A stretch of 64,000 bases of DNA from the NCBI RefSeq assembly GCF_900465355.1, contig NZ_LS483254.1, positions 248,001-312,000 on the forward strand. The letters are read 5' to 3'. Below, in pieces: positions 6,240 to 51,097 of the stretch. Every line of letters starts with the position of its first letter. Position 1 is the stretch's first letter. The DNA is from Candidatus Bipolaricaulis anaerobius. Its GTDB lineage: Bacteria; Bipolaricaulota; Bipolaricaulia; Bipolaricaulales; Bipolaricaulaceae. Made by a program: the position numbers and the translations under genes. The notes beneath the pieces are model-generated. The model searched no databases. It was not told the DNA's origin and worked only from the letters and a program-made list of their open reading frames with translations.

Positions 6240-6688
6240 CTGCGCGGGGGGAGCGGGTGGTGGCCTGCCAAGTCTGCCCGCGGCTCGTCTCCTACCGGGC
6301 GGCGGTGGCCCACGCGAAGCGCCGTTCGTTTCGGGAGGAGGTCTACTGGGGTCGTCGGGTTCGGGGATCCTCGCGCGCGGCTTCTCATTGTGGGATTGGC
6401 CCCGCTCCCCACGGCGCGGGGGACTTCCTCATGGGCTCCCTCCACCGGGCCAGCCTCGCCCTGGGACGGATCGCGTTCGACGGGTGCGGACGCGCTCTGC
6501 GCGAGCTCGGGGCCGACGGACGCCTGCTCCCCTTCGCTCCCGGAGCGAGCTACGCGCCGGGCGCAGGGCTCCCGACCCTCGTTGCCTCCTCCCATCCTTT
6601 GCGGCAGAACACCCAGGCCGGCCGGCTCACCGTGGCGATGTTCGATCGAGCGCTGGCCCGTGCCCTGTCTCCTCCCGCGCCGCCTTGA
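6215..6688 (+). pseudogene. Decayed family-5 (UDGb-type) uracil-DNA glycosylase
   Basis: The frame opens with CQVCPRLVSYRAAVAHAK and EEVYWGR, as in type-5 uracil-DNA glycosylases, but the next conserved block (VVGFGDPRARLLIVGLAP) is encoded two bases out of frame at about 6350-6404. The original frame resumes with APHGAGDFLMGSLHRA. The NRTGRMFTGDRSG-type loop is missing, as is a block of roughly 50 residues between SLHRASLA and LGRIAFDGCGRALRELG. The C-terminal block SSHPLRQNTQAGRLT survives. Two compensating indels plus two deletions mean an active glycosylase is unlikely. The 3' end overlaps the convergent comEC by 62 bases. The start shown (TTG) is arbitrary. Confidence 0.75.
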
Positions 6689-8081
6689 GGAAGAGGATCC
6701 CGCCTGCGGCGAAGAGGGACCACAGCCCGAACCCCGGGCCCACCGGAAGCGACGCACCGGGGAGGGACGAAAGCCACCGCACCACGGCGAGGTAGGGACC
6801 GACGAGGACCCGTTCCGCCACGAATCCGAGCGGCAGAGGAACGGGGAGCGCGGCGAGGGAGAGGAGGAGGATCCCACCCCATAGGATCGCCCCCGTCCAC
6901 GGGACGAGGACGAGGTTTGCGAGCACCCCGTACAGGGAGACGTAGCCGAACACGGTTCCAACGATCGGGACTGCCCCTGCTTGAGCACAAAGGGTCACCG
7001 CGGCGGTATCCGCGGCCCAGCGGACCAAGCGAGGGAGCTTTCCGCGCACCGCGGATTTTGTCCATCCGGGGAGGAACAAGAGGATCCCCGCCGTAGCGAG
7101 GAACGAGAGCTGGAAGCCCGCGTCGAACGCCGACCATGGCCACAGCGTGAGGACGACGATCGCCGCGAGCGCAAGCCCCTGCAGCGGGTCGAGCCACTTC
7201 CTCAGGACCCACCCCCGCTCCCAGAGGAGCCAAAACAGGCCGAGGACGGCGAACATGATCCCCGCCCGGATGAGGGAAACCCGCGCCCCGCCGACGAGGA
7301 CGTAGAATCCAATTGCCGGAACGAGGAGGAGGTACCGCCAGCCAGGGCGGATCCGCAGGAGCCCAAGCAGCCACCACCCCCCCGCGGCGAGGATCCCCAC
7401 GTGGAGCCCGGAGAGGGCGAGGACGTGGGCCACGCCTGCCATGCGAAACGCCTCCTCGTCCTCGTCGGGGAGCCGGCCCCGGGCACCGAGGAGGAGCGCG
7501 GCGAGGAGGTCCGCCGCCCGCGGGGAGAGGGCAGCGTCGAGTCGCGCGACGAGATCCTGCCGGACACGCGATGCCCACCGGGCGGGCCCTGGTCCGCCTG
7601 TGGTGAGGACCTCGAGTTCGGCTGCCCAGAACAGGCCATGAATCCCGCGCCGGGCGAGGCTCGTGCGCCACGCCTCCGGTTGCGGCGGCGCCCACTGCCC
7701 AACCAGCCTCACCCGATCCCCTGGGCCGACGCGAGGGGCCTGGGGTGCGTACGCGAGGAGCCGCACCGGGAGAGAATCCAGAGCGAGGGTGAACGACACG
7801 TTCTTCGCGCGGGGCTCGGGGATATCGAGGACGCGGCCCGTGATCTCTTTCAGATTCGGAAGCTGGAACTGAAGGTAGGGCGGGAGCGCCTCCGTGACCG
7901 GGAGGGCGAGGCCCACCGCGAACGCGGCGATCCACAGCGCCACCACCGACCGGCGCCACCCTGCGAGGAGGAGCACCGCTCCCGCCGCGGCCAAGGGAAG
8001 GGGCCCGGGGTGGAGGAGGTCACCGAAGGCAATCCCGAACCCGAGGGCTACCCCAAGCCCAGGAAGGAGAGCCCGTCCCAT
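6627..8081 (-). CDS. comEC: ComEC/Rec2 family DNA-uptake channel, short form
   Basis: The 484-residue integral membrane protein matches the ComEC channel that carries transforming DNA across the inner membrane. It has N-terminal helices and a DUF4131-like beta region to about residue 170, then the Competence domain with LSGLHVG and many transmembrane helices. It ends shortly after the last helix, so the metallo-beta-lactamase-like C-terminal domain found in many ComEC proteins is absent. The ATG at 8081 has GGAGG nine bases upstream, and a TATACT box on the minus strand overlaps the tmRNA promoter. Confidence 0.85.
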   Translation of the reverse strand: MGRALLPGLGVALGFGIAFGDLLHPGPLPLAAAGAVLLLAGWRRSVVALWIAAFAVGLALPVTEALPPYLQFQLPNLKEITGRVLDIPEPRAKNVSFTLALDSLPVRLLAYAPQAPRVGPGDRVRLVGQWAPPQPEAWRTSLARRGIHGLFWAAELEVLTTGGPGPARWASRVRQDLVARLDAALSPRAADLLAALLLGARGRLPDEDEEAFRMAGVAHVLALSGLHVGILAAGGWWLLGLLRIRPGWRYLLLVPAIGFYVLVGGARVSLIRAGIMFAVLGLFWLLWERGWVLRKWLDPLQGLALAAIVVLTLWPWSAFDAGFQLSFLATAGILLFLPGWTKSAVRGKLPRLVRWAADTAAVTLCAQAGAVPIVGTVFGYVSLYGVLANLVLVPWTGAILWGGILLLSLAALPVPLPLGFVAERVLVGPYLAVVRWLSSLPGASLPVGPGFGLWSLFAAGGILFLKAAREETGHGPALDRTSPR

Positions 8082-8119: not shown

Positions 8120-8477
8120 GGGGGTGACCGGTCTCGACGGGAACACCGAGGCCAGGCGGCAGGCGGAGGTCCGTCTCCTCCTAAATCCGACGGAACGGCA
8201 AACAAACGCCGACTATGCAACTGTTCCTGCTTACGCCCTGAACTAGGCGTAGGCCGTCCGCGGCGCCCCCGCCCGTGGGGTGCCGTTAGGGCGTCGACAA
8301 GACGGGCTGGTCCAGGTGGCTGGCCTTGGGCGACCTGGATGAAACCGAACGAGGCTGAGGGCCGAACGATCCCGCCCGTGGGAGCGTGACGCCCGAGATG
8401 AAAAACGCGGGCTAAGCTTGTAGAAGCCGAAGCCGAGGGGTTTTCGGACGGGGGTTCGACTCCCCCCACCTCCACCA
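8120..8477 (+). ncRNA. ssrA: Transfer-messenger RNA (tmRNA)
   Basis: The 5' end GGGGGTG pairs with CACCTCC at 8467-8473, followed by A and an encoded CCA, forming the tRNA-like acceptor stem. GACCGGTCTCGACGGG and GGTTCGACTCCCCCC are the conserved tRNA-like domain. The tag frame runs from about 8200 and reads NADYATVPAYALN followed by TAG GCG TAG, with the stop inside the P5-type hairpin TACGCC/GGCGTA. The tag therefore appears to end in YALN rather than the usual LAA. The exact resume codon is uncertain. tmRNA with SmpB rescues stalled ribosomes. Confidence 0.92.
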
Positions 8478-8553
8478 GGCGGCGTAGCCAAGCGGCAAAG
8501 GCGAGGGACTGCAAATCCCTTATTCCCCGGTTCAAATCCGGGCGCCGCCTCCA
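8478..8553 (+). tRNA. tRNA-Cys (GCA)
   Basis: The acceptor stem GGCGGCG pairs with CGCCGCC, the anticodon loop CTGCAAA holds GCA, and TTCAAAT is the T-loop. The discriminator is T, as expected for cysteine, and CCA is encoded. Its first base directly follows the tmRNA CCA with no spacer, so a single cut would separate the two RNAs. Confidence 0.95.
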
Positions 8554-8567
8554 GAAGGGCGGAGGAC

Positions 8568-8644
8568 GGGTGGTTAGCTCAGCTCGGTAGAGCACGCGCT
8601 TGACGTGCGCGGGGTCGCAGGTTCAACTCCTGCACCACCCACCA
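8568..8644 (+). tRNA. tRNA-Val (GAC)
   Basis: The acceptor stem GGGTGGT pairs with ACCACCC, the anticodon stem CGCGC/GCGCG encloses TTGACGT with anticodon GAC, and TTCAACT is the T-loop. CCA is encoded. It lies 14 bases after tRNA-Cys and is probably transcribed with it from the tmRNA promoter. Confidence 0.95.
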
Positions 8645-32705: not shown

Positions 32706-34112
32706 TCAGCCGTCCGTAGTCGCTGCCTCGACGACCGACTTCTGCCAGCCCTTCGAGAGGAGGAACCCCAACGCCACTAGACCCGACAGGACATTGGAGA
32801 GCGACATCCCCCACCATACCCCATCCGCTCCCAACCCGAGGGTGAACCCGAAGAGGTAAGAAAGGGGGATCCGCAGCACCCACAGCCGCACGACCCCCAG
32901 GATCATCGTCGGCACGTTATGGCCGGATCCGCGGTAGATGGCCATCGCTGCGAAGAACGTGCCCAAAAATGGCATGCTCACCGCAAACGCGCCGATGAAC
33001 TGTGCCCCCACCGCGATCACATCCTGCCGTTCGGGGATGAAGAGGGCCACCACCGGGTAGCGAACGAGCCATAGGAGGACTGCCTCGACGGAGAGGATGA
33101 CGACGAGAGCCGTGATCCCCTTTCGCACGAGGTCCCGCGTGCGGGCCATCACCCCTGCGCCGAGGGCCTGGCCGACCATCGTCGTCAGCCCCGTGCTCAG
33201 GCCGTCGGTGACGATGAACAGGATCCCCAATACGCGATCCCCGATCCCGTACCCGGCGAGGGCCACTTCCGCGTTGGGGAGCCGACTGATGAGCGCTGTC
33301 ATGATCACGAACCCGAACGACATGCTCGACTGGCCGATCGCCGCCGGGACTCCAATCTGGAGGCTCTTGGCCATCCACCCCCACTCCGGGACCATCGCCG
33401 ACGGCTCCAACCGCAGGTGGTCGCTCCCCCGCCCAAGGAGGATGAGGAAGGCGAGCATCGCCAGGCCCTGCGAGGCGATCGTGGCGTAGGCTGCACCGAG
33501 GATCCCCATCTGGGGGAGCCCTCCCCATCCCAGGACGAGGAACGGGTCGAGGGCCATGTTGACGAGGGTCCCCGCCCCGTTCACGAGGAGGGGGGTCACC
33601 GTGTCCCCGGTGGCAGCAAACGCAGCGTGGAACAGGCCTGGGAGGACCATCGTCGGGAGGCCGATGAAGATGACCTTGATGTACTGCGAAGCCGCGCTCG
33701 ACACTGCTCCCTCCCCGACGAGGAGGTCGAGGAGGAACGGGGACGCGAAGTAGCCCCCCACCCCGAGGACGATCCCCGATACTGCGGACAGGATGAAGAG
33801 CTGATTCAGGGCGTGGTTCGCCTCCGTGGGCCGTCCTGCCCCCATGTACTGGGCCACGAGCGCGCTCACTGCCGCCCCGCCGAACCCGGAGATGAACGAG
33901 ATGAGGAACCACACGATCGGCCACGAGACCTGGATCCCGGCCACCGCCGCCGCCGAGGTCTCGGGGGGGAGCCGCCCGATCCAGAACGCGTCGGTGAGGT
34001 TGTACAGGGTGAAGATGAGCGAGCCCAGAACGGCTGGGCCGCCGATCCGGGCCATCGTCTTCAAGGCCGGGCCGGTCAGGATCTCGTCGCGGGAGGGGGT
34101 TCGGAACCTCAT
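32706..34112 (-). CDS. MATE-family multidrug/cation efflux transporter (copy 1)
   Basis: The 468-residue membrane protein has twelve predicted helices and two similar halves. GPALKTMARIGGPAVLGSLIFTLYN-type start residues, TDAFWIGRLP, VAQYMGAGR and GQALGAG are MATE/NorM-like. It exports organic cations or drugs by ion antiport; ion and drug specificity are not visible. The ATG at 34112 follows a TATACT box at 34125-34130 by 13 bases with no ribosome binding site. A paralogue lies at 41824-43215. Confidence 0.88.
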   Translation of the reverse strand: MRFRTPSRDEILTGPALKTMARIGGPAVLGSLIFTLYNLTDAFWIGRLPPETSAAAVAGIQVSWPIVWFLISFISGFGGAAVSALVAQYMGAGRPTEANHALNQLFILSAVSGIVLGVGGYFASPFLLDLLVGEGAVSSAASQYIKVIFIGLPTMVLPGLFHAAFAATGDTVTPLLVNGAGTLVNMALDPFLVLGWGGLPQMGILGAAYATIASQGLAMLAFLILLGRGSDHLRLEPSAMVPEWGWMAKSLQIGVPAAIGQSSMSFGFVIMTALISRLPNAEVALAGYGIGDRVLGILFIVTDGLSTGLTTMVGQALGAGVMARTRDLVRKGITALVVILSVEAVLLWLVRYPVVALFIPERQDVIAVGAQFIGAFAVSMPFLGTFFAAMAIYRGSGHNVPTMILGVVRLWVLRIPLSYLFGFTLGLGADGVWWGMSLSNVLSGLVALGFLLSKGWQKSVVEAATTDG

Positions 34113-34124
34113 GGTGAAGGCCGA

Positions 34125-34130
34125 AGTATA
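34125..34130 (-). promoter_or_regulatory. -10 box (TATACT) of the first MATE gene
   Basis: On the minus strand TATACT precedes the ATG by 12 bases, predicting a leader of only about six bases without a ribosome binding site. No clear -35 box was found. Confidence 0.45.
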
Positions 34131-34238
34131 CCCGAGACCGCTTGTGGTTGGGTTGACGCTGGCCTGGCACTTGGTAAAGGTCCGTTTCTCCACCCCGGAA
34201 CAACGCCGATCCCCGCGCCCTTAGTAGGAAGCCCGTCC

Positions 34239-40745: not shown

Positions 40746-41864
40746 ATGGCGGGACACACAGGGACCGCGGACCTTCCCCTCCACGAGGGCCATGCCCCGC
40801 GGTGGTTGTTTGCGCGGATGGTCCTCCTGGCGCGGGAGATCGTCCTCGCCCTCGCCGATGAGTTCGGGACAGAAGGGGTGCTGGCCCGGCTCTCTGACCC
40901 CCGCTGGTTTCAAGCGTTGGGGTCCCTCCTCGGGTTCGACTGGCACTCGAGCGGCCTCACCACGACCACCTGCGGGGCGGTGAAGGAGGCGCTGCGCGCG
41001 GTGGGGGACGAGATCGGCCTGTACGGAGCAGGGGGCAAGGGGGCTGCCTCGCGGCGAACGCCGCTGGAGATTGCGGAGGCCGCGCCACGGCTCGCCGTCG
41101 AGCCAGGGCCGCTCGCCGACGCGTCGCGGATGGCGGCCAAGGTGGACTCCGCTGCCCTCCAGGATGGGTTTCAGATCTACCACCATGCGTTCTTCTTCGA
41201 TCGGGCAGGGCGGTGGTGTGTCGTCCAGCAGGGGATGAGCGAGAAGACGGGCCTGGCCCGCCGCTACCACTGGTTCTCCGAGGCCGTTGCGGACTTCGTG
41301 TGCGAGCCCCACGCCGGGATCGTGGGACCGCGGTCCGATCTCGTCCTGAACCTCGTGGCGCGGGAAGCCGATGGGTTGCGGAGGGCAATCCCCGAGGTCG
41401 CCCGCGAGCCGCCGGAGCGGTTGGTGAGCGAACTCTCGCGCTTGCAGGCCCTGACCCTCCCCCGTCGGCACGCCCTCCTCGTCTCCGATCTCGACCCCCA
41501 GCGGCTGCGCACGGTGTTCCTCTCCTCCTATGCGAGCGAGGCGACGGACTTTGCGGGGCTCCTCCGCACCCGGGGGGTGGGGGCGAAGGGCCTGCGGGCC
41601 CTCGCCCTGCTGGCCGAGCTTCTCTACGGCACCCCCGTCTCGTTCCGCGATCCGGCCCGGTTCGCCTATGCCCACGGCGGGAAGGATGGGATCCTCTACC
41701 CGGTGGACCGGGAGACCTACGATCGAACGATCGGGATCCTCCGCCGGGCAGTGGAACGGGCGCGGTTGGGGGAACGGGAAGAGCTCGCCACGCTACGGCG
41801 GTTGGCGTCGGTTGAACCGGCCTTCATTCGGTGGCCCCCTGGGCGGCCACCGGGACGCGGATGA
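40746..41864 (+). CDS. DUF763 family protein
   Basis: The 372-residue protein matches DUF763 (PF05559): TADLPLHEGHAPRWLFARMV at the start, TTTTCGAVKEALR, DSAALQDGFQIYHHAFFF, VVQQGMSEKTGLARRYHW and a late helical part with GAKGLRALALLAEL. The family is found in archaea and thermophilic bacteria and may belong to the HhH/DNA-repair sphere, but function is not established. The ATG at 40746 sits eight bases after a TACCAT box. The last 41 bases overlap the convergent MATE gene. Confidence 0.85.
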   Translation: MAGHTGTADLPLHEGHAPRWLFARMVLLAREIVLALADEFGTEGVLARLSDPRWFQALGSLLGFDWHSSGLTTTTCGAVKEALRAVGDEIGLYGAGGKGAASRRTPLEIAEAAPRLAVEPGPLADASRMAAKVDSAALQDGFQIYHHAFFFDRAGRWCVVQQGMSEKTGLARRYHWFSEAVADFVCEPHAGIVGPRSDLVLNLVAREADGLRRAIPEVAREPPERLVSELSRLQALTLPRRHALLVSDLDPQRLRTVFLSSYASEATDFAGLLRTRGVGAKGLRALALLAELLYGTPVSFRDPARFAYAHGGKDGILYPVDRETYDRTIGILRRAVERARLGEREELATLRRLASVEPAFIRWPPGRPPGRG

Positions 41865-43215
41865 CCTTCTTCTTCCACGTCCCGCGCCCGAGCCACAGGA
41901 CGAGGGCGATCCCCGCCAGGAAGTTGCTGAGGGCCATCCCCGCCCACATCCCCGTCGTCCCGAACCCCAGTGGATAGGCAAGGGCCCAGGACAAAAAGAC
42001 CCGCAACACCCACAGCCGGACGATGGACATCACCATCGGCGGCACGGTGTGGCCCGAGCCGCGGAACGTGGCCGCCGCTCCATCGAACAGGCCGAAGAAC
42101 GGGATCGAGGTCCCGAACACGGCGATGAACCAACTGCCCTCCCGGATCACGTCGGGGTCGGCCACGAACACGCTGAATAGCGGGCGGCGCAGGAAGAAGG
42201 CCAGGCAGTACACCCCGATCAGGGAGAGGAACGTGGCGGTGATCCCCCGGCGGGCGATCGTCTCCGCCCGCTCGGTCTGATCGGCCCCCAGGTTCTGGCC
42301 GATCATCGCCACGAGGGCGTTCGCCGCTCCCAAGCTGATCACATTGACGAGGTTGATGAACCGGTTCCCCACAGTGTAGGAGGCCACGACCGCCGTCCCG
42401 AACCCGGACACGAGCCCCATCATCACCACGAACCCGAGCGAGCTGCTCGTCTGATCGAGGACGTTGGGGAGGCCCACCCGGAGGATGGGGAGGAGCCGCG
42501 CGCGGCGGGGCCGGAGATTCCTAAAGTGGACCCGTAGCCCTGCTCGGCCGGAGAAGAGGATCGTCAGTCCGACCACGGCGATGAGAACGCGCGAGAGGAC
42601 GGTCGCAAGCGCCGCGCCGGCTACCCCCCACTCCGGGAAGGGCCCCCAGCCGAAGATGAGGAGCGGGTCGAGCACTGCATTCAGAAGGAGTGAGGAGACG
42701 TGTAGGTACATCATGAGGCGGGTGTTCCCCAACCCCACCATGAGGCCGCCGAACGCCTGGGCAAGGAACATGAACGGGAGCCCTGCGCACTCGATCCGGA
42801 GGTAGAGGAGCGCCAGAGGAAAGAGATCCTCCGGCGCACGGATGAGACGCAGCACCGCGGGGGCAGCCGCGAACCCGGTTGCTCCGAGGACGACCGATGC
42901 CAGGGCAAGGAAGCCTAGGATTTGTCCGGCTGACTCCTCTGCTCCCTTCTGATCGTGGGCCCCGTAATGCTGGGCTACGAACGCCGTCCCGGCAGCCTGG
43001 AATCCGCCGGCGAACGACATGAAGAAGAACAGGATCGGCCAGGCCATCCCCGGTGCGGCCATCGCTGCCGTGCTCAACTTCCCGAGCCAGAACGCATCCA
43101 CGAGGTTGTACAGCGCCTGTACGGCCCCGGTGAGCATCGCCGGCCAGGCCAGGAGGAGCATCGTCGGGAGGATGGGCCCCTTCAGGATTTTCTCGCGCAC
43201 GTACCTTGGGTTCAT
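41824..43215 (-). CDS. MATE-family efflux transporter (copy 2)
   Basis: The 463-residue membrane protein has twelve predicted helices in two repeats. ALYNLVDAFWLGKLS, VAQHYGAHDQKG and GQNLGADQTERA are MATE signatures, and the C-terminal VRLWVLRVFLSWALAYP closely parallels VRLWVLRIPLSYLFGFT of the copy at 32706-34112, so the two are paralogues. The ATG at 43215 is the family start; the frame is open upstream into intergenic DNA. A TATACT box lies 14 bases before it. Confidence 0.88.
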   Translation of the reverse strand: MNPRYVREKILKGPILPTMLLLAWPAMLTGAVQALYNLVDAFWLGKLSTAAMAAPGMAWPILFFFMSFAGGFQAAGTAFVAQHYGAHDQKGAEESAGQILGFLALASVVLGATGFAAAPAVLRLIRAPEDLFPLALLYLRIECAGLPFMFLAQAFGGLMVGLGNTRLMMYLHVSSLLLNAVLDPLLIFGWGPFPEWGVAGAALATVLSRVLIAVVGLTILFSGRAGLRVHFRNLRPRRARLLPILRVGLPNVLDQTSSSLGFVVMMGLVSGFGTAVVASYTVGNRFINLVNVISLGAANALVAMIGQNLGADQTERAETIARRGITATFLSLIGVYCLAFFLRRPLFSVFVADPDVIREGSWFIAVFGTSIPFFGLFDGAAATFRGSGHTVPPMVMSIVRLWVLRVFLSWALAYPLGFGTTGMWAGMALSNFLAGIALVLWLGRGTWKKKVIRVPVAAQGATE

Positions 43216-43229
43216 CGGCTGAAGGAGGA

Positions 43230-43235
43230 AGTATA
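43230..43235 (-). promoter_or_regulatory. -10 box (TATACT) of the second MATE gene
   Basis: TATACT on the minus strand ends 14 bases before the ATG, predicting a leader of about seven bases. There is no ribosome binding site between them, and no clear -35 box. Confidence 0.45.
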
Positions 43236-43718
43236 CACGACGGAACAGGGGAAGGAAACCGACTATTCTTGGTGCGCCCGGAGATCGTCGCCAGGCAGAG
43301 GCCATGGGGAGAAGGCAGTTGGAGGCAGGTGGTGCTCCTCTTAGGCGAGCTCGGCGGCATGGGAAGGAGAAAGGCGGCTGAGTGGAGCTCTCGCACCTGG
43401 GGAGAGATCCGCAGCGAGAATGGCCTTCTAGTAGGGAGCTGGTTGGGTGCACTACTAGAACCTGGTCTGGCCTCACTATGGGGCGGGGATGGACGGGAAT
43501 CCCTCGCTCTGGAAACTGCGGAAGCTTGGATGCGATCTAGGTGAGGACTCCATGCTATTTCCACCCCTGATAGTGGGCAAGGTCAGTGCCGACAGAACAG
43601 GTTGGGGTGGTAACGACCTCCTGGCCCACTACACGAAACGCCTCAACCGCGTGCCAAGGCGAGGATGCTCTCGGGTGGCCACGGTCCACCGGGATGGAGC
43701 GGAGGTCGGAGCGGTGGC
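43236..43718. other. Non-coding gap between divergent genes, with an inverted repeat
   Basis: About 480 bases carry no frame with family resemblance on either strand. The only clear structure is a perfect 9-base inverted repeat, TTCTAGTAG at 43426-43434 and CTACTAGAA at 43452-43460, with a 17-base spacer. It is AT-richer than its surroundings and could be a hairpin or a regulator site. Such a long gap is exceptional in this tightly packed window. Confidence 0.6.
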
Positions 43719-43755
43719 TTGACGCTTGGCATTCTATAGCGTATACTGTTGGCAT
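43719..43755 (+). promoter_or_regulatory. Strong promoter of the redox operon with a direct repeat
   Basis: TTGACG at 43719-43724 and TATACT at 43742-43747 are exactly 17 bases apart, the best promoter in the window. TTGGCAT occurs twice, at 43726-43732 in the spacer and 43749-43755 at the start site, 23 bases apart and flanking the -10 box. Two same-face copies placed this way could bind a repressor. A leader of about 48 bases with AGGAGGTGG precedes the first gene. Confidence 0.75.
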
Positions 43756-43802
43756 AGCGTCTGGCGGGCGTTGCTCTCGACGGACGCGTCAGGAGGTGGA
43801 AC

Positions 43803-44189
43803 ATGTTGATCGAGGTGGCAAAGGTGCGGGATGTGCCGCCAGGAGGGCTAAAGGCCGTGGAGGCAGGGGGCAAGGAAATCGTCCTGGCCAACGGCGATGG
43901 GAAGATCTATGCCATCGCCCGCCGCTGCGGGCACATGAACGCCCCCTTGGAGAAGGGAACCCTGGCCGGAAACATCCTGACCTGTCCTATGCATGGGGCC
44001 CGGTTCGATGTCACCACCGGCAAGGTGAAGAGCGAACCGCCGGAGGGAGGACCGATGCCATCTGGGCTTCCCGAGTCATTCGTCCACCATATGGAGCGCC
44101 TGGGGTCCCTCATGGCCGAGATCAAGACTTACGATCTCCCCACCTATCGGGTCCAGGTGGAGGGGAACACCATTAAGGTCGAGATCTGA
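43803..44189 (+). CDS. Rieske-type [2Fe-2S] ferredoxin (first of two)
   Basis: The 128-residue soluble protein has a Rieske cluster site with C42-x-H44 (RRCGHMNAPLEKG) and C61-x2-H64 (TCPMHGARFD). It lacks the disulfide cysteines of bc1-type Rieske proteins, so it resembles the ferredoxins that serve oxygenases or nitrite reductases. A 38-residue insertion with a Pro/Gly-rich part and a helix (about 78-112) precedes the last strands. AGGAGG lies seven bases before the ATG. First gene of a seven-gene redox operon. Confidence 0.87.
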   Translation: MLIEVAKVRDVPPGGLKAVEAGGKEIVLANGDGKIYAIARRCGHMNAPLEKGTLAGNILTCPMHGARFDVTTGKVKSEPPEGGPMPSGLPESFVHHMERLGSLMAEIKTYDLPTYRVQVEGNTIKVEI

Positions 44190-44213
44190 AATCAGCGTCG
44201 TAAGGGGGAGAAC

Positions 44214-44660
44214 ATGCCGCAAGAGATACCGTCTTTGGTCGCTGTGGGCCTCAATCTTGGGGGGTTGGCCGCTCTCCTTTTCCTAGTGGCTAACCTGGCA
44301 GTGATCTTCCATCTCGTGCAAAGGTTGATCGCCCCCAAGAGCCGCTGGGCCTGGCTCGACGGACTGCGGCGCCGCTGGCATTACGTACATTACATCGGCA
44401 ACCTGGCCATGGTCGGGGCCATGATCGCCCACGCGGCGCTGTTAGGCCCGTATGCCTCGCCGTTGCATTGGCTCTTGGTGGCGCTGCTCGTCTGGATGGC
44501 CGGCGTTGGCATCACCCTACGCTTTACCAACGCCTCGCCGAAGGTCAAGCGGGGGCTTTCCCGCCTCCACTCCCGGTGGTACATGTTCGTGGCTGTGTTG
44601 GTGGTCTTGATCGCGGCGCACATCTGGTCACTCCCAAATTTCCCCTACCCCCTGGAGTAG
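44214..44660 (+). CDS. Four-helix His-rich membrane protein, possible b-type cytochrome
   Basis: The 148-residue protein has helices at about 11-35, 57-77, 83-103 and 122-140. His56, His59 and His73 lie in or near helix 2, and His119 and His136 border helix 4, spacings compatible with haem b ligation between helices. I do not recognise the family. If haem-bound, it could pass electrons between the quinone pool and the soluble Rieske or rubredoxin partners encoded beside it. AAGGGGGAG precedes the ATG. Confidence 0.65.
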   Translation: MPQEIPSLVAVGLNLGGLAALLFLVANLAVIFHLVQRLIAPKSRWAWLDGLRRRWHYVHYIGNLAMVGAMIAHAALLGPYASPLHWLLVALLVWMAGVGITLRFTNASPKVKRGLSRLHSRWYMFVAVLVVLIAAHIWSLPNFPYPLE

Positions 44661-44685
44661 GCGGGGTCACAAAAGGAGTCAAAAA

Positions 44686-46662
44686 ATGGGAAAAGAGTTG
44701 AAGTATCCCCGGCTTTTTGAGCCGATCACGCTGCGTGGGGTGGAGATCAAGAACCGCATCCTCTGGCTTCCGCATGAGCCCCATTTCGGCAGCAACGACC
44801 ACCTGCCCACGCGTCAACAGCTCTACTACTACCGGGAGCGGGCCCGGGGCGGCGTCGGGGCCATCGGCGTCCCCAGTTTGGGCGTCCACCGTAGCGGCAC
44901 CTATGCTGGCCTGGTCGACGCCTACCGCCCGGAGAGCATCCCCGGGCTCCGGGCCATTGTGGATGCCGTCCACGCCTACGGGGCCAGGATCTATGCCCAG
45001 CTCACCCACTTCGGGAATCAAACCAAGAGCGCGGAGACGCACGGCCCGGCCTGGGCGCCCTCGGCCGTCCCAGACCTCACGGTGCGCGAGCTCCCCAAGG
45101 CGATGACGGTGGACGAAATCCAGGAACTGGTGGCATCCTTCGCCCGGGCGGCGGAAAATGTGCTCGCCGCCGGCTTCGACTGGGTGGAGATCAAGGTGGC
45201 CCACGACGGCATCCTGCGCCAATTCCTCTCCCCCGCGAAGAACAAGCGCACCGATGCCTACGGCGGCTCGCTCGAGAACCGCGCCCGGATCGTGATGGAG
45301 GTGCTGCGAGCCGTCCGGGACGCCCAGGGCGACGTCCCCTTGGGCGTCCGCCTGTGCCTAAACGAGTATATCCCCCACGGCTACGGCGTAGATGAGGCCG
45401 TGGAGTACGCCAGGATGTTCGCCACTGTGGCTGACTACATCAACACCGACGCGGGCACCTGGGAGTCCATGCACTACATGGTGCCACCGATGACCATCCC
45501 CATGGGCTACTTGCTTGGAGACGTGGCGCGCATCAAGCAGGCGGTGAACGTGCCGGTGATCGGCACCGGACGCATCGTGTGGCCGCAGACCGCCGAGCAA
45601 GCGCTCGCCGATGGGGCATGTGACATGATCGGCATGGCCCGGGCGCTCATCGCTGACCCCTACTGGGCGGAGAAGGCCCAGCGTGGGGCGCCGGAGGAAA
45701 TCCGCGGCTGCATCGGCTGCAACCAGAAGTGCATCGGCCGGCTGCTTCAGAACCTGCCCATCTCCTGCGTGGTCAACCCCACCTCGGGCTACGAGCGTGA
45801 GTTCGGCGCCGAGTTTTTTTACAGGCCCACGCGACGGCCCCGGAAGGCAGTGGTGGTGGGCGGAGGGCCAGCGGGGATGAAAGCCGCCGAAACCATGGCC
45901 CGACGCGGGCATCAGGTGGTGCTCTTCGAGAAGGAGAGGCGGCTCGGCGGACGGGTGAACTGGGAAAGCGCCCTGCCCAATCGCCGCGGCGTCTCCGGTG
46001 CCGGCCGTTACCTGGAACAAACGGTGACCGGGCTTGCCCGGGTCGAGGTCCGGCTCGGCGTGGAAGCGGATGTGGATGCCGTCCTTTTGGAGCAGCCCGA
46101 CATCGTAATCGTCGCCACCGGGGCGATGCCGGTGGCCGAGCTCCCGGGCGTGGAAGCCGCGGGCAACCTGTATCACACCCTGGATGCGCTCGCGGGACGG
46201 GTGGAGGGGGAAACGCTTTTGGTGATGGACAACGACGCCACCGAGGAGGGGGCCGGCGTGGTGGAACTCCTGCTCGGGCAAGGCAAGACAGTCCATTGGG
46301 TGACCCCGGTCTTTTTCAACGGACAGGACATAAACGTCGTTGTTTCCATTCCTTATTATCAGCGCCTAGGCGGCCGGGATGTCGGGCTTTATCCCATGAG
46401 CGTGGTGACCGGCTTCGCTCTGGGCACCGCAACGCTCCTCAACGTTCAGTACGGCACAAGACAGGAGATCACTTGGGTAGACGCCATCGTGGTGACGGGG
46501 GTTTGGGCCCCGAAAAACGAGCTCTATGAAAAGCTCCAGGGGCGACTGCCCCGGCTCCTCATCCTCGGGGATGCGGCGGCGCCGCGCACCTTGGCGGCCG
46601 CCCTGGGCGACGCCATGAGCCTGACCGAAGACCAAATAGAACATGGCAAAAAGAGGAGGTGA
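44686..46662 (+). CDS. NADH:flavin oxidoreductase of the 2,4-dienoyl-CoA reductase/OYE type
   Basis: The 658-residue protein has an FMN TIM barrel (about 1-340) with LFEPITLRGVEIKNRI, HDGILRQFLSPAKNKRTD and YGGSLENRAR, then the [4Fe-4S] motif C342-x2-C345-x3-C349-x11-C361, then FAD and NAD(P)H domains starting VVVGGGPAGMKAAETMARRG near 387. This is the FadH/trimethylamine-dehydrogenase/enoate-reductase layout that moves electrons from NAD(P)H through FAD and the cluster to FMN. Its substrate is unknown. AAGGAG precedes the ATG. It is probably the electron entry point of the operon. Confidence 0.9.
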   Translation: MGKELKYPRLFEPITLRGVEIKNRILWLPHEPHFGSNDHLPTRQQLYYYRERARGGVGAIGVPSLGVHRSGTYAGLVDAYRPESIPGLRAIVDAVHAYGARIYAQLTHFGNQTKSAETHGPAWAPSAVPDLTVRELPKAMTVDEIQELVASFARAAENVLAAGFDWVEIKVAHDGILRQFLSPAKNKRTDAYGGSLENRARIVMEVLRAVRDAQGDVPLGVRLCLNEYIPHGYGVDEAVEYARMFATVADYINTDAGTWESMHYMVPPMTIPMGYLLGDVARIKQAVNVPVIGTGRIVWPQTAEQALADGACDMIGMARALIADPYWAEKAQRGAPEEIRGCIGCNQKCIGRLLQNLPISCVVNPTSGYEREFGAEFFYRPTRRPRKAVVVGGGPAGMKAAETMARRGHQVVLFEKERRLGGRVNWESALPNRRGVSGAGRYLEQTVTGLARVEVRLGVEADVDAVLLEQPDIVIVATGAMPVAELPGVEAAGNLYHTLDALAGRVEGETLLVMDNDATEEGAGVVELLLGQGKTVHWVTPVFFNGQDINVVVSIPYYQRLGGRDVGLYPMSVVTGFALGTATLLNVQYGTRQEITWVDAIVVTGVWAPKNELYEKLQGRLPRLLILGDAAAPRTLAAALGDAMSLTEDQIEHGKKRR

Positions 46663-46668
46663 GAGACG

Positions 46669-46830
46669 ATGAAGAAGTACCAGTGTCCGACCTGTGGTTA
46701 CATCTACAACCCGGATGTGGGCGACCCCAGTGCAGACATCCCGCCGGGCACGCCCTTCGATGACCTGCCCGACGACTGGGTCTGCCCGGTATGCGGGACC
46801 CCTAAGGCGGAGTTCGCGCCTGTTGACTGA
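46669..46830 (+). CDS. Rubredoxin
   Basis: The 53-residue protein is a complete rubredoxin: [19 protein letters not shown] with the first Cys pair, [19 protein letters not shown] with the second. It binds one iron and is a small soluble electron carrier, often a donor to superoxide reductase, rubrerythrin or flavodiiron protein, none of which is encoded here. AGGAGGTGAGAG precedes the ATG, six bases after the flavin oxidoreductase stop. Confidence 0.96.
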
Positions 46831-46840
46831 GGAGGTTAGC

Positions 46841-47152
46841 GTGCCCGCGTGGACAGTTGTGGCCGAAGCGGATGCCATTGGCGAGGGAGAGCTCCGGGCC
46901 GTCTCCGTGGCCGGGCTTCCCATCCTCCTCGTCCGGCGCCAGGGGCAGGTGTACGCTCTGGATGAGCGCTGCCCTCACCTTGGCTGCTCATTGGCCCGGG
47001 GGACTTTGGAGGGCTACATCCTGAAATGCCCGTGCCACGACTGGCGGTTCGATATCCGCACCGGCGAGTTCCTCGCCGCCCCGGAGATCAGGCTCCCCAC
47101 TTACCCGGTCCGGGAGGCCGCGGGGAAGCTTTTCATCGTACGAGGAGACTAG
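46841..47152 (+). CDS. Rieske [2Fe-2S] protein with bc1-type cysteines (second of two)
   Basis: The 103-residue protein has C44-x-H46 and C63-x2-H66 for the cluster plus Cys49 and Cys65 (CPHLGC and CPCH), the pair that forms a disulfide in cytochrome bc1/b6f Rieske proteins and raises potential. There is no signal or membrane anchor, so it appears soluble. GGAGG lies five bases before the GTG start, ten bases after rubredoxin. Differences from the first Rieske protein suggest separate potentials or partners. Confidence 0.87.
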   Translation: MPAWTVVAEADAIGEGELRAVSVAGLPILLVRRQGQVYALDERCPHLGCSLARGTLEGYILKCPCHDWRFDIRTGEFLAAPEIRLPTYPVREAAGKLFIVRGD

Positions 47153-47153
47153 C

Positions 47154-47411
47154 ATGGAGGAGAAAAAGGTATTCTTGTACGCGATAAGCACCTGCCCGTG
47201 GTGTCGGAAGACCAAGCAGTTCTTCACCGATAACCACGTGGAGTTCGATTTTGTGGATGTGGACCTTCTGGAGGGCGAGGAGCAGGAGAAGGTGATGGAC
47301 GAAGTGTATCGCCTGAGCGGGGCCCGTGCTTTTCCCGTGGTCATAATCGGCGAGACGACGGTGGTCGGTTACCGTCCTGACCGCTACAAGGAACTCCTGA
47401 AGATCCCTTGA
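47154..47411 (+). CDS. Glutaredoxin-like thiol-disulfide protein
   Basis: The 85-residue protein has a thioredoxin fold with the redox motif C14-P-W-C17, the cis-Pro segment ARAFPVVIIGETTVVGY and a short final helix. It follows the Rieske stop by one base. CPWC rather than CPYC is seen in several anaerobe glutaredoxins and NrdH-like proteins. A likely electron donor is the reductase chain encoded next. Confidence 0.9.
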   Translation: MEEKKVFLYAISTCPWCRKTKQFFTDNHVEFDFVDVDLLEGEEQEKVMDEVYRLSGARAFPVVIIGETTVVGYRPDRYKELLKIP

Positions 47412-47434
47412 CCATCGTTCAGTCGGGAGGGGAG

Positions 47435-47764
47435 ATGGAGATCGAGGCGCGGAAGCGTGAGCTGCGGGAGTGGTTTGGGAGGGTGGTCGATGTGCTTGGC
47501 TACAAATTCAGCCCCGACGAGGAGCTCGTGGACTTCTTGCTCGAGCAGGAGGTTTTGCTTGAGCGCAAGACCGGGGCTCCCTACTGTCCCTGTCAGGGCC
47601 GCACCGGGAACCGGGAGGAGGATATGCTGATCGTTTGTCCCTGCATCCCCTTCCACCGCAAGCACTTCGACGTGATGAAGCGGTGCTGGTGCGGACTTTT
47701 CGTGCATAAGGACGTCGCCGACCCAAGTGCTCTCCCCCAGATCCCCCTGACCGAAATCACCTAA
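47435..47764 (+). CDS. Ferredoxin-thioredoxin reductase catalytic-chain homologue
   Basis: The 109-residue protein has six Cys in the family order: C51-P-C53, C68-P-C70 and C84-W-C86, followed by GLFVHKDV. These would hold a [4Fe-4S] cluster next to a redox disulfide that reduces thioredoxins. The last pair is CWC instead of the plant CHC, so the active-site His is replaced by Trp, and spacing to it is longer (13 residues). No variable subunit gene is nearby. The ATG at 47435 has GGGAGG upstream; a TTG at 47408 overlapping the glutaredoxin stop is an alternative. Confidence 0.85.
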   Translation: MEIEARKRELREWFGRVVDVLGYKFSPDEELVDFLLEQEVLLERKTGAPYCPCQGRTGNREEDMLIVCPCIPFHRKHFDVMKRCWCGLFVHKDVADPSALPQIPLTEIT

Positions 47765-47812
47765 ATACCGGCCAGTTGAGCCGAAGGCTAGGGGCTTGTC
47801 CCCCATCCCGGC

Positions 47813-47833
47813 GGGTACACAAGTCTTGTGCCC
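47813..47833. terminator. Hairpin between redox operon and HxlR gene
   Basis: GGGTACACAA and TTGTGCCC pair around a GTC loop, with two unpaired bases. CCTTCTTTT follows on the plus strand a few bases later. It separates the end of the redox operon from the convergent HxlR-family gene and could serve both. Confidence 0.5.
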
Positions 47834-47835
47834 AG

Positions 47836-48168
47836 TCAGCCTTCTTTTGAGAGCGGTGGGGAAAGGTACTGGCGGGCCCAGCGGTCGATGGCCCCGATGA
47901 CCTCCCGGAGCGCTAGCCCAGCTTGGGTGAGCTCATAGGTGGTGTGCGGGGGCATCACCGAGTGCACTGTCCTCTTCACGATCCCCAGCTCCTCCAGCCG
48001 ATCGAGCCGTTGGGCCAGGGTGGCTGGGTTGCAGCCGCCCACGGTGCGAGAAAGCTCGTTGAACCGCCGCGGCCCGTCGAGCAGGGCCCGAATGATGTGC
48101 AAGACCCACTTCTCCTGGAGGAGATCGATGGCCACCTCGGCCGGACATCGTTCCCTTTCTTCACCCAT
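47836..48168 (-). CDS. HxlR-family winged-helix regulator
   Basis: The 110-residue protein has the HxlR pattern ERCPAEVAIDLLQEKWVLHIIRALLDG, here with conserved Cys8, then PRRFNELSRTV, LAQRLDRLEELGIVKR and TTYELTQAGLALREV (each segment within the standard wing-helix order). A second Cys is at 46. In YodB, CatR and HypR the N-terminal Cys senses disulfide, quinone or hypochlorite stress. Its position at the end of a thiol/redox operon suggests it regulates that operon. The ATG is nine bases after a TACCAT box, so possibly leaderless. Confidence 0.88.
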   Translation of the reverse strand: MGEERERCPAEVAIDLLQEKWVLHIIRALLDGPRRFNELSRTVGGCNPATLAQRLDRLEELGIVKRTVHSVMPPHTTYELTQAGLALREVIGAIDRWARQYLSPPLSKEG

Positions 48169-48177
48169 TCCAACTCA

Positions 48178-48183
48178 ATGGTA
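48178..48183 (-). promoter_or_regulatory. Putative -10 box (TACCAT) of the HxlR gene
   Basis: On the minus strand TACCAT ends nine bases before the ATG and would give a nearly leaderless message. No -35 partner is clear, and no copy of the TTGGCAT repeat from the redox promoter was found here. Confidence 0.4.
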
Positions 48184-48713: not shown

Positions 48714-49475
48714 ATGTCTTCCATGCTGGAACGAGCCATCGCCTTGATTGCCCTCGTGGTGCCACTGACATGCGCCGGCCTGGGGGCGGAAGTCAACCTC
48801 CCTCCGCGGGCCGAGCTCATGGTGGTGAACGTGATCCCCGGCGTGCCAGCGTCGTTCGAGCTGGCAGCTTCTGACCCCGACGGCGATCCGCTGACCTTCA
48901 CCGTCCTTGGTGGCCCCCACCATGGGCAGTTGGTGGGGGATCCTCCCCACCTGACCTACATCCCCGAGCTGGGCTCTTGGGGAACGGACGAGATCACCTT
49001 CTCCGTGGCTGACCCCTATGGGGCGATCGACCTTGGGCTGGTCAAGCTCTGTGTCACGCCTCAGATCCCCACCCACTACATTGGCGATGCAGACGCGCTT
49101 TCCAAGGTAGGCCTGGCCGAACTGGCGGTGCATCTTGCCGGCCAGCAGGTCCAGGTGTGGTACATCTTCACCGAACGCGCGGGGGTCTTCGCTATCGGGG
49201 AGGTGATCCCAGTGCTCCTCCCTCCGGGCGGAGAGGTGAGCTGGGTGGGCATGTGCTGGGTGGGAGCTGAGGGTGTCCACCTTGAGTCGCCAGCCACGGA
49301 CTGGGACGCCGCGGGGTTGCTTCATGTCGCCACGCGGTCCCTGCCAGCAGGGGCCTACATTCTGACCGTGGTCAAGCACCGTGAGGCGTTCTCGTTTCTC
49401 ATCGCGCTGAAGGGAACGCCCGACGAGGGCACCCATCTCGCCGCTGGTGACCCGCGTGAGGAGCAAGGAGGATGA
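48714..49475 (+). CDS. Secreted protein with one Ig/cadherin-like module
   Basis: The 253-residue protein has a signal peptide (about 1-24) and an N-terminal cadherin/Ig-like module with PASFELAASDPDGDPLTFTV, GQLVGDPPHLTYIPELGSWG and TDEITFSVADPYGA. The C-terminal half is beta-rich and of unknown family. ATG 48714 is used; an ATG three codons later is possible. It overlaps the next gene, which carries a related module, and the two probably act together at the cell surface. Function unknown. Confidence 0.7.
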   Translation: MSSMLERAIALIALVVPLTCAGLGAEVNLPPRAELMVVNVIPGVPASFELAASDPDGDPLTFTVLGGPHHGQLVGDPPHLTYIPELGSWGTDEITFSVADPYGAIDLGLVKLCVTPQIPTHYIGDADALSKVGLAELAVHLAGQQVQVWYIFTERAGVFAIGEVIPVLLPPGGEVSWVGMCWVGAEGVHLESPATDWDAAGLLHVATRSLPAGAYILTVVKHREAFSFLIALKGTPDEGTHLAAGDPREEQGG

Positions 49476-49477
49476 AC

Positions 49478-51097
49478 ATGCGTGCGTTCAGGATCATAGG
49501 TGTAGCGACTACAGTCGTGATGGCCTTGTCCGGGTGGGCGGCCGACGCTCCGATGCAGGTGGTGTTTGTCCCCTTCGACACCCCCACCTTGTTTGTCCTC
49601 GCTACGGGGGATCAGGGCCTGGCGTACACGATCCTTGAACTCCCCACCCAGGGTGTGCTCGTTGGGATCCCTCCCTACCTCACCTACATCCCCCGCGCCG
49701 GGTTCTCCGGGACGGATTGGGTGCACTACCTCGTCCAGACCGATCAAGGGCAGTGGGATCTCGGGACGGTGCAGCTCGTCGTCTTTTCACCCGGGGCCAC
49801 GATGAGCCCATTCGTGTTCACCAGCGAGGCGGAGCTTGGCTGGTCCGGGCCGACGTTCGCCCTGGATAGCTACCGGTTCGTCTTCGGCGTCCAGGCACGG
49901 TTCACCTACTTCGAGCAGGCGTTGCGGGCGACCTGGACCGACGCGGGGTTCACGTCGTTCGTGGGCACGACGCGGGTCGCTCTCGATGGATCCTGGCCCA
50001 GCCCTTGGCGCCTTCCCATCACCCTCACCCTCGACTTCGATCCCACCGGTCCGACGTTCAGATCGTGGAACGTGGACGCCCGCACGACGATCGCAGGGGT
50101 GACCTGGGCCTACACCTTCTACTCTCCATCGGGGTTCCTGTTCGTCGTGACCGAGAACGTGGATGAGATCGTGACCGCACTGGCGTTGGGACAGATCGCC
50201 GATCCGCTACGCGAGGAGTTCGCGGACCATGGGTACACCCTTTCCCCTGGGGCGTCGGTGTCGCCGTCCGGGGGGGGATGGGAACTGACCAGCGGTGCGT
50301 GGATCTTCCGCATTGTGGAGGGCGATGGAACGCTGACTGTCTACCTCGAAGGGACCTACGCTACGTTCCAGGTACAGGGGGCGCTCGGCCCGATCGCGTT
50401 CGACAGTCGGACTACGTTCGTCCATCTCACCCCCACCTTCGGCGAGCAAAAGCTCACCCTCCGGGGCCCATGGATCTGTGAGGGGTGCCCCACGAATTGG
50501 GAACTGAACTTCGCGCAGACCAAAGCCGGGTTTGACCACCTGAGCCTCCTCATCAAGGACGTCGAGATCCCATGTCCAGGGTGCGGGGCCATTCAGACTT
50601 TCTTCGACATCGAGGTCACGTTCACCGTAGACGAGAAGAAGCTCGAGCCTTCGCTGCGGGTGAGTTCAGGCTTCGTGGCCTGTGTCAGGCCGCTGGTGGC
50701 CCTGGCCACGCCGGAGACAGGGTTCGGGCTGTCGGGCTTCGACCTCTACGGGATCGAGATCAAATGCGAACTCGCTAGCGGCTACATCCTGCGCCTCGCG
50801 ACCTCGTTCAACCCCCTCCAGGATTCCTCCGTTACGGGGTACGCCCAGTTCTTCGAGCTGTGGCAGCTTGAGGGGCCGGTGGTCCCGTGCTGTGGGAACC
50901 CAGGCCGGTTCCAGCTATCGGCGTATTTCGGTCGCGAGAGCGGGTCCCTCTTTGGGCTGGGGATGGGGAACATCATCCTCTACTTCCCCGTGTCGCGCGA
51001 GGTCCTCGTCAACGTCGGCCTCAAGTTGGGGGAGGTGGACCCCGGCGATCCAGCCAAGACCTGGATCCTTGCCGTAGGGTCGAAGGGGCTGTTCTAG
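49478..51097 (+). CDS. Large secreted or outer-membrane beta-rich protein
   Basis: The 539-residue protein has a signal peptide (about 1-23) and an N-terminal module with LPTQGVLVGIPPYLTYIP and FSGTDWVHYLVQTDQG that parallels the Ig-like module of the upstream gene. The rest alternates aromatic and polar residues in beta-strand style, has several CxxC pairs (CEGC, CPGC, CC) and ends in GSKGLF, a terminal Phe as in outer-membrane proteins. No known family recognised. ATG 49478 was chosen over 49472 because AAGGAGG ends six bases before it. Confidence 0.7.
   Translation: MRAFRIIGVATTVVMALSGWAADAPMQVVFVPFDTPTLFVLATGDQGLAYTILELPTQGVLVGIPPYLTYIPRAGFSGTDWVHYLVQTDQGQWDLGTVQLVVFSPGATMSPFVFTSEAELGWSGPTFALDSYRFVFGVQARFTYFEQALRATWTDAGFTSFVGTTRVALDGSWPSPWRLPITLTLDFDPTGPTFRSWNVDARTTIAGVTWAYTFYSPSGFLFVVTENVDEIVTALALGQIADPLREEFADHGYTLSPGASVSPSGGGWELTSGAWIFRIVEGDGTLTVYLEGTYATFQVQGALGPIAFDSRTTFVHLTPTFGEQKLTLRGPWICEGCPTNWELNFAQTKAGFDHLSLLIKDVEIPCPGCGAIQTFFDIEVTFTVDEKKLEPSLRVSSGFVACVRPLVALATPETGFGLSGFDLYGIEIKCELASGYILRLATSFNPLQDSSVTGYAQFFELWQLEGPVVPCCGNPGRFQLSAYFGRESGSLFGLGMGNIILYFPVSREVLVNVGLKLGEVDPGDPAKTWILAVGSKGLF

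Follow-up and report, generated by a model that had tools for sequence, protein, structure and literature searches.

What does an operon that strings together several electron carriers, a flavoenzyme, a membrane protein, and a thiol reductase do, and which of its parts belong together? We addressed this question for a gene block at positions 43719–48183 of a 64,000-nt stretch (hereafter, the window) of the Candidatus Bipolaricaulis anaerobius genome, which is represented by one contig of 1.32 Mb and is ~97% complete (NZ_LS483254.1; the window spans positions 248,001 to 312,000). Seven genes on the (+) strand encode, in order, a Rieske ferredoxin (Rieske 1), a membrane protein (MP), an OYE-type flavoenzyme (OYE), a rubredoxin, a second Rieske ferredoxin (Rieske 2), a CPWC glutaredoxin (Grx), and the catalytic chain of a ferredoxin:thioredoxin/disulfide reductase (FTR), and a convergent gene for an HxlR-type regulator follows. 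Reading of the sequence together with profile searches found all eight genes intact and arranged as an earlier note on this DNA had described them. Comparison with other genomes revealed that the conserved unit consists of MP, rubredoxin, and a flavoprotein active on carbon–carbon double bonds (C=C). This unit is rare and patchily distributed; two phyla or more contain it, and in a further phylum MP is accompanied by a rubredoxin remnant, while both Rieske proteins and the thiol arm formed by Grx and FTR lie outside the conserved core.

The core is visible in the neighborhoods of MP homologs. In the Anaerolineaceae genome UBA6073 (locus L004), MP (50% identity to the window copy) follows an OYE (57%) and two rubredoxins (68% and 55%). 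Two more Anaerolineaceae genomes (L046 and L047) encode a rubredoxin, a 544-aa FAD enzyme, and MP, all in one direction. In Synergistaceae UBA4088 (L005), a C-terminal rubredoxin stump lies immediately 5′ of MP, downstream of a transposase. Overall, MP adjoins rubredoxin in four of six lineages, an outcome with a probability of ~1e-6 by chance according to a rough estimate that assumes no more than five rubredoxin genes per 2 Mb and 3 kb on either side. The earlier note had proposed searching for MP together with Rieske, OYE, and FTR genes; OYE and MP (and rubredoxin) do occur together in another phylum, but with neither a Rieske nor an FTR gene there. The same loci carry additional features. 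A DDE transposase remnant (6561–7109) separates the OYE and rubredoxin genes of L004, and a broken LigB fragment (7462–7759) lies inside that cluster. The transposase genes and the rubredoxin stump preceding MP in L005 (800–1980) suggest that an insertion removed the remaining cluster. Finally, the cluster of rubredoxin, FAD enzyme, and MP has as its neighbors in L046 (5581–7034) and L047 (3360–4834) two divergent genes, which encode an extradiol dioxygenase of the LigB/DODA type and a DsbA/FrnE-like protein.

No family in Pfam or NCBIfam matched MP (44214–44660) at cutoff, and comparison of MP with the sequences of solved structures yielded chance matches only. After weak matches were set aside, homologs were found in 2 of 100 genomes of the host phylum, 2 of 346 Anaerolineae, 3 of 147 Anaerolineaceae, and 1 of 188 genomes of the phylum containing the Synergistaceae match. 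A peptide-pattern scan returned two matches among 84,980 species genomes, and no relatives were detected when MP and OYE were compared with viral contigs and MP with plasmids. Two further matches were discarded: the one in G761 (L048) resembles membrane proteins of the DedA type, and the one in G052 is a 53-codon frame with an internal stop. The homologs are 48–54% identical to the window copy, and His33, 56, 59, 73, 119, and 136 are invariant in all seven MP copies; these six histidines and the motif WHYVHYxGN provide a searchable marker for the protein. Nearly all Lys and Arg residues of the seven copies fall within loops 35–54 and 102–121, and, by the positive-inside rule, these loops are predicted to be cytoplasmic and the N and C termini to be outside. 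With this placement, His33, 56, 59, and 119 would lie close to the cytoplasmic surface and His73 and 136 close to the outer one; two hemes stacked across the membrane would fit such an arrangement.

An AlphaFold model of MP (pLDDT 88.7, pTM 0.78) contains four helices, and its top match among solved structures, albeit a weak one (E 0.41, probability 0.97, TM 0.59), is FdnI, the diheme subunit of formate dehydrogenase N. All five MP members scanned also match the cytochrome b561 family (PF01292) weakly (best E 8.8e-5), with the window copy scoring 11.8 bits, under the gathering cutoff of 30.1. MP is predicted to have, like FdnI and prokaryotic cytochrome b561, a four-helix bundle with conserved histidines on both membrane sides, but it differs from them in its His layout, in its termini, which are predicted to be outside, and in its partner, which is a rubredoxin instead of an Fe-S subunit. 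Because both matches are weak or under cutoff, we do not assign MP to either family; rather, its conserved histidines and predicted fold suggest that it works like a diheme cytochrome b, in agreement with the membrane heme protein anticipated by the earlier note.

The second component of the core, OYE (44686–46662; 658 aa; PF00724), shows the layout of FMN, [4Fe-4S], and FAD found in trimethylamine dehydrogenase (TMADH), with a complete CxxCxxxC…C cluster motif, and clusters fully supported with its L004 counterpart. Among curated families, it fits mycofactocin OYE2 (TIGR03997) best, with a score of 617.8 bits against a cutoff of 793. Mycofactocin OYE2 loci resemble the window in containing the nearest enzyme family (the Streptomyces copy is 40% identical) with the same FMN-[4Fe-4S]-FAD layout and no FadH-type NADPH motif, and in having electron-carrier genes adjacent. 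In Streptomyces, Haloterrigena, and Halolamina, these neighbors encode the alpha and beta subunits of the electron transfer flavoprotein (ETF), an FAD oxidoreductase, and a 4Fe-4S ferredoxin, and the last two together resemble an ETF:quinone oxidoreductase. The window operon, unlike these loci, has rubredoxin and MP, and no mycofactocin or ETF gene lies inside it. In its second Rossmann fold, OYE carries DNDATEEGAG in place of the Gly-rich NADPH motif of Escherichia coli FadH (GCGGIGFD). A FadH-type NADPH enzyme was rejected for this reason, and the earlier proposal that NAD(P)H enters through the flavin enzyme is left unsupported. An amine dehydrogenase was rejected as well, since OYE has no Cys in residues 20–40, which we take to be the site of Cys-bound FMN in TMADH and other amine dehydrogenases.

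The FAD enzyme of L046 is closest to cyclohexanone dehydrogenase (8AM3/8AM8; E ~1e-146) and retains Tyr195, Tyr376, Tyr570, and Gly574, the four catalytic residues named for that enzyme (PMC10966990). The Alicycliphilus denitrificans cyclohexanone dehydrogenase (8AM3, PMC10966990) is thus the closest solved relative of the L046/L047 flavoenzyme, but no such enzyme is encoded in the window. From the identities of OYE and the L046 enzyme, it follows that two unrelated flavoprotein families acting on the same kind of substrate bond pair with rubredoxin and MP.

The reading we favor, although tentatively, is that the operon core carries electrons between the membrane and the soluble flavoenzyme. 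The substrate of the flavoenzyme would gain or lose hydrogen at a C=C bond adjacent to a carbonyl group, and the reaction could run in either direction. As a four-helix diheme cytochrome b, MP would give electrons to, or take them from, a carrier in the membrane, for which a quinone is the likeliest candidate. The rubredoxin (46669–46830; 53 aa), which belongs to its family by both score (NF045768, 92.4 bits; cutoff 90) and its two CxxC motifs, would ferry electrons one at a time between MP, at the cytoplasmic side of the membrane, and the [4Fe-4S] cluster of OYE. The path would thus connect the membrane carrier (probably quinone), the MP hemes, rubredoxin (with the Rieske carriers), the [4Fe-4S]-FMN centers of OYE, and the C=C substrate. 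MP and rubredoxin may form an exchangeable adaptor, the slot of which holds OYE in the window and L004 or a cyclohexanone-dehydrogenase-type enzyme in L046 and L047; by analogy, they may replace the ETF and ETF:quinone oxidoreductase of the OYE relatives at mycofactocin loci. Electron transfer from flavoproteins to the membrane is known, and the new element would be the previously unclassified membrane component. A precedent exists in the Fusobacterium butyryl-CoA reductase, a Bcd-EtfA-rubredoxin fusion in which rubredoxin trades electrons with a flavoprotein acting on C=C bonds, but the electrons there go to a flavodiiron oxygen reductase and no membrane cytochrome is involved (PMC12288474).

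Several observations weigh against such a chain. MP is solitary, with no rubredoxin or large flavoprotein nearby, in congener G007 and in the Anaerolineae genome G290, both of which also lack the window-type OYE, and the OYE form of the core was found in two genomes only. The evidence for MP as a cytochrome includes a weak fold match (E 0.41) and a PF01292 score under cutoff. Use of NAD(P)H by OYE is possible, as BaiCD, another OYE relative, is NAD(H)-dependent, and rubredoxin is a promiscuous carrier. Finally, a described member of the Bipolaricaulota has no complete respiratory or electron transport chain (PMC6092417), a point that applies if the host is a fermenter of this type.

The same chain could instead belong to a catabolic dehydrogenase, in which the flavoenzyme would oxidize a saturated ketone or similar compound and rubredoxin and MP would relay the electrons to the membrane, much as in TMADH with ETF. 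Consistent with this alternative, the class of the L046/L047 flavoprotein has been investigated as an alpha,beta-desaturase (PMC10966990), the mycofactocin OYE relatives are placed with ETF and an ETF:quinone oxidoreductase-like pair, and LigB-type ring-cleavage genes are found beside the clusters. However, OYE has no Cys at the presumed site of Cys-bound FMN (residues 20–40), OYE-type enzymes usually reduce their substrates, and the operon contains no catabolic genes, so that we regard a catabolic role as rather unlikely.

Turning to the genes outside the core, both Rieske proteins pass the PF00355 cutoff and possess complete CxH…CxxH ligands. Rieske 1 (43803–44189; 128 aa; 73.2 bits) is of the dioxygenase-ferredoxin type and is longer than plasmid homologs by ~28 residues toward the C-terminal part, and Rieske 2 (46841–47152; 103 aa; GTG start; 76.9 bits) is of the naphthalene-dioxygenase ferredoxin type. 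Grx (47154–47411; 85 aa), assigned as a glutaredoxin/NrdH-like protein by profile searches, is followed by FTR (47435–47764; 109 aa), which exceeds the PF02943 cutoff (89.2 bits versus 22) and contains the CPC/CPC/CWC cysteines expected of the family (CPC/CPC/CxC). Its six Cys residues align with those of 4tpu, the nearest solved FTR, which was itself deposited as "rubredoxin". As in 4tpu-type ferredoxin:disulfide reductases with NrdH/glutaredoxin, there are three CxC motifs and Grx is ahead of FTR; in fact, Grx is directly upstream of FTR in all six loci inspected (one from Synergistaceae and five from distant members of the host phylum), which bears out the earlier view of FTR and Grx as a thiol arm. 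In the two loci read through (L007 and L038), FTR (179 and 181 aa) ends with a C-terminal rubredoxin domain, which the window FTR does not have; a separate rubredoxin gene is present in the operon instead. A ferredoxin:disulfide reductase is reported to feed ribonucleotide reductase in Methanosarcina (Wei 2015, as cited in PMC11846895). Given the consistent pairing and the rubredoxin-linked FTR precedents, we consider Grx-FTR a known module that has been joined to the core here. In the host, the adaptor would gain two soluble Rieske carriers and the thiol arm, and FTR may draw on the free rubredoxin as well.

The HxlR/DUF24 regulator gene (47836–48168, (−) strand) lies 71 bp beyond FTR, and its product scores 83.6 bits against the HxlR profile and has an N-terminal Cys8, in line with the sensing-type Cys described earlier. 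It resembles the quinone/diamide sensor YodB (E 3e-15) and the redox regulators RrpA/RrpB, and would probably regulate the unit through a thiol or electrophile signal. The likeness to YodB makes a thiol/electrophile stress operon the strongest rival to electron transfer between the membrane and a C=C flavoenzyme. HxlR would sense quinones or disulfide stress, OYE would remove reactive enones and quinones, and FTR would reduce Grx for thiol repair, with rubredoxin and the Rieske proteins distributing electrons to the enzymes and MP drawing them from the membrane. The resemblance to YodB and RrpA/RrpB, the N-terminal Cys, the family of OYE, the Grx-FTR pair, and an HxlR gene with the composition of the block all fit this model. 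On the other hand, the Anaerolineaceae core comes without HxlR, Grx, and FTR and can use a desaturase-type flavoenzyme, and no palindrome or common motif was found in the regions preceding the operon and the HxlR gene; we consider a stress function possible but improbable.

Did these genes arrive as one unit? The G+C content at third codon positions (GC3) of the eight block genes ranged from 0.76 to 0.83 (0.81 overall), compared with 0.872 (standard deviation 0.029) for 26 other genes in the window (Mann-Whitney p = 8e-7). Since GC3 is lower than in the neighbors and OYE was not found in any of the 11 congeners searched, the block was probably acquired horizontally; FTR likewise had no match elsewhere in the family of the host. 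HxlR (GC3 = 0.784) is in line with the operon, and because all eight genes have low GC3, it probably arrived together with the other seven. Among the genomes searched, the seven-gene order was found in the host only and, therefore, is not itself a conserved system. Literature searches returned no described operon of matching make-up, and the claim that none is known holds for the full order, but the Grx-FTR pair is known, as are OYE relatives with ETF. The restriction of the full set to the host, the solitary MP in two genomes, and the separate existence of Grx-FTR as a module would also be expected if transfer had simply gathered independent redox genes, with OYE having its own reductant, Grx-FTR serving ribonucleotide reductase or thiols, and MP having an unrelated role. 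This explanation appears very unlikely given the tight spacing, the uniform composition, and the fact that four of six lineages have rubredoxin beside MP (~1e-6 by chance, as roughly estimated above).

The gaps between the seven genes are 24, 25, 6, 10, 1, and 23 bp, in order, and each gene is preceded by a purine-rich ribosome-binding site (7 of 7); this spacing and the uniformly low GC3 agree with the coherent redox operon proposed earlier. The note had also postulated one strong promoter. A sigma-70-type promoter-like site, TTGACG-17-TATACT (43719–43747, (+) strand; 10 of 12 matches), is indeed located ~55 bp upstream of the first start codon, and its position suits transcription of the operon. 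However, 1.0 such site is expected by chance in a region of equal size (shuffled sequence), so that the site is no rarer than chance and its proposed strength lacks support. Elsewhere in the window, two genes on the (−) strand (32706–34193 and 41824–43476) encode MATE-type exporter-like proteins, the second of which points away from the operon and may have an intergenic region in common with it. Just downstream of HxlR (48714–51097), two adjacent proteins with similar repeats (TYIPELGSWGTDEI / TYIPRAGFSGTDWV) have a surface- or cadherin-like look. A tmRNA (tag ADYATVPAYALN), tRNA-Cys, and tRNA-Val lie in a row at 8120–8644.

Rubredoxin is best known as an electron carrier in the oxygen and peroxide defense of anaerobes, and, to our knowledge, few routes from rubredoxin to the membrane have been described. 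A bolder and more doubtful proposal is that MP is the founding member of a rubredoxin:quinone oxidoreductase family that has not been described, composed of minimal diheme cytochromes b that, by way of rubredoxin, plug various enone-active flavoenzymes into the quinone pool of anaerobes in place of ETF and ETF:quinone oxidoreductase. If so, the same carrier would feed the thiol arm in the host, and one regulated operon would combine C=C redox chemistry with electron transport at the membrane and the reduction of disulfides. Many OYE- and KstD-type enzymes that are orphans in anaerobes would then gain a physiological electron partner, and O2-independent respiration or desaturation of enones, steroids, and cyclic ketones would be predicted.

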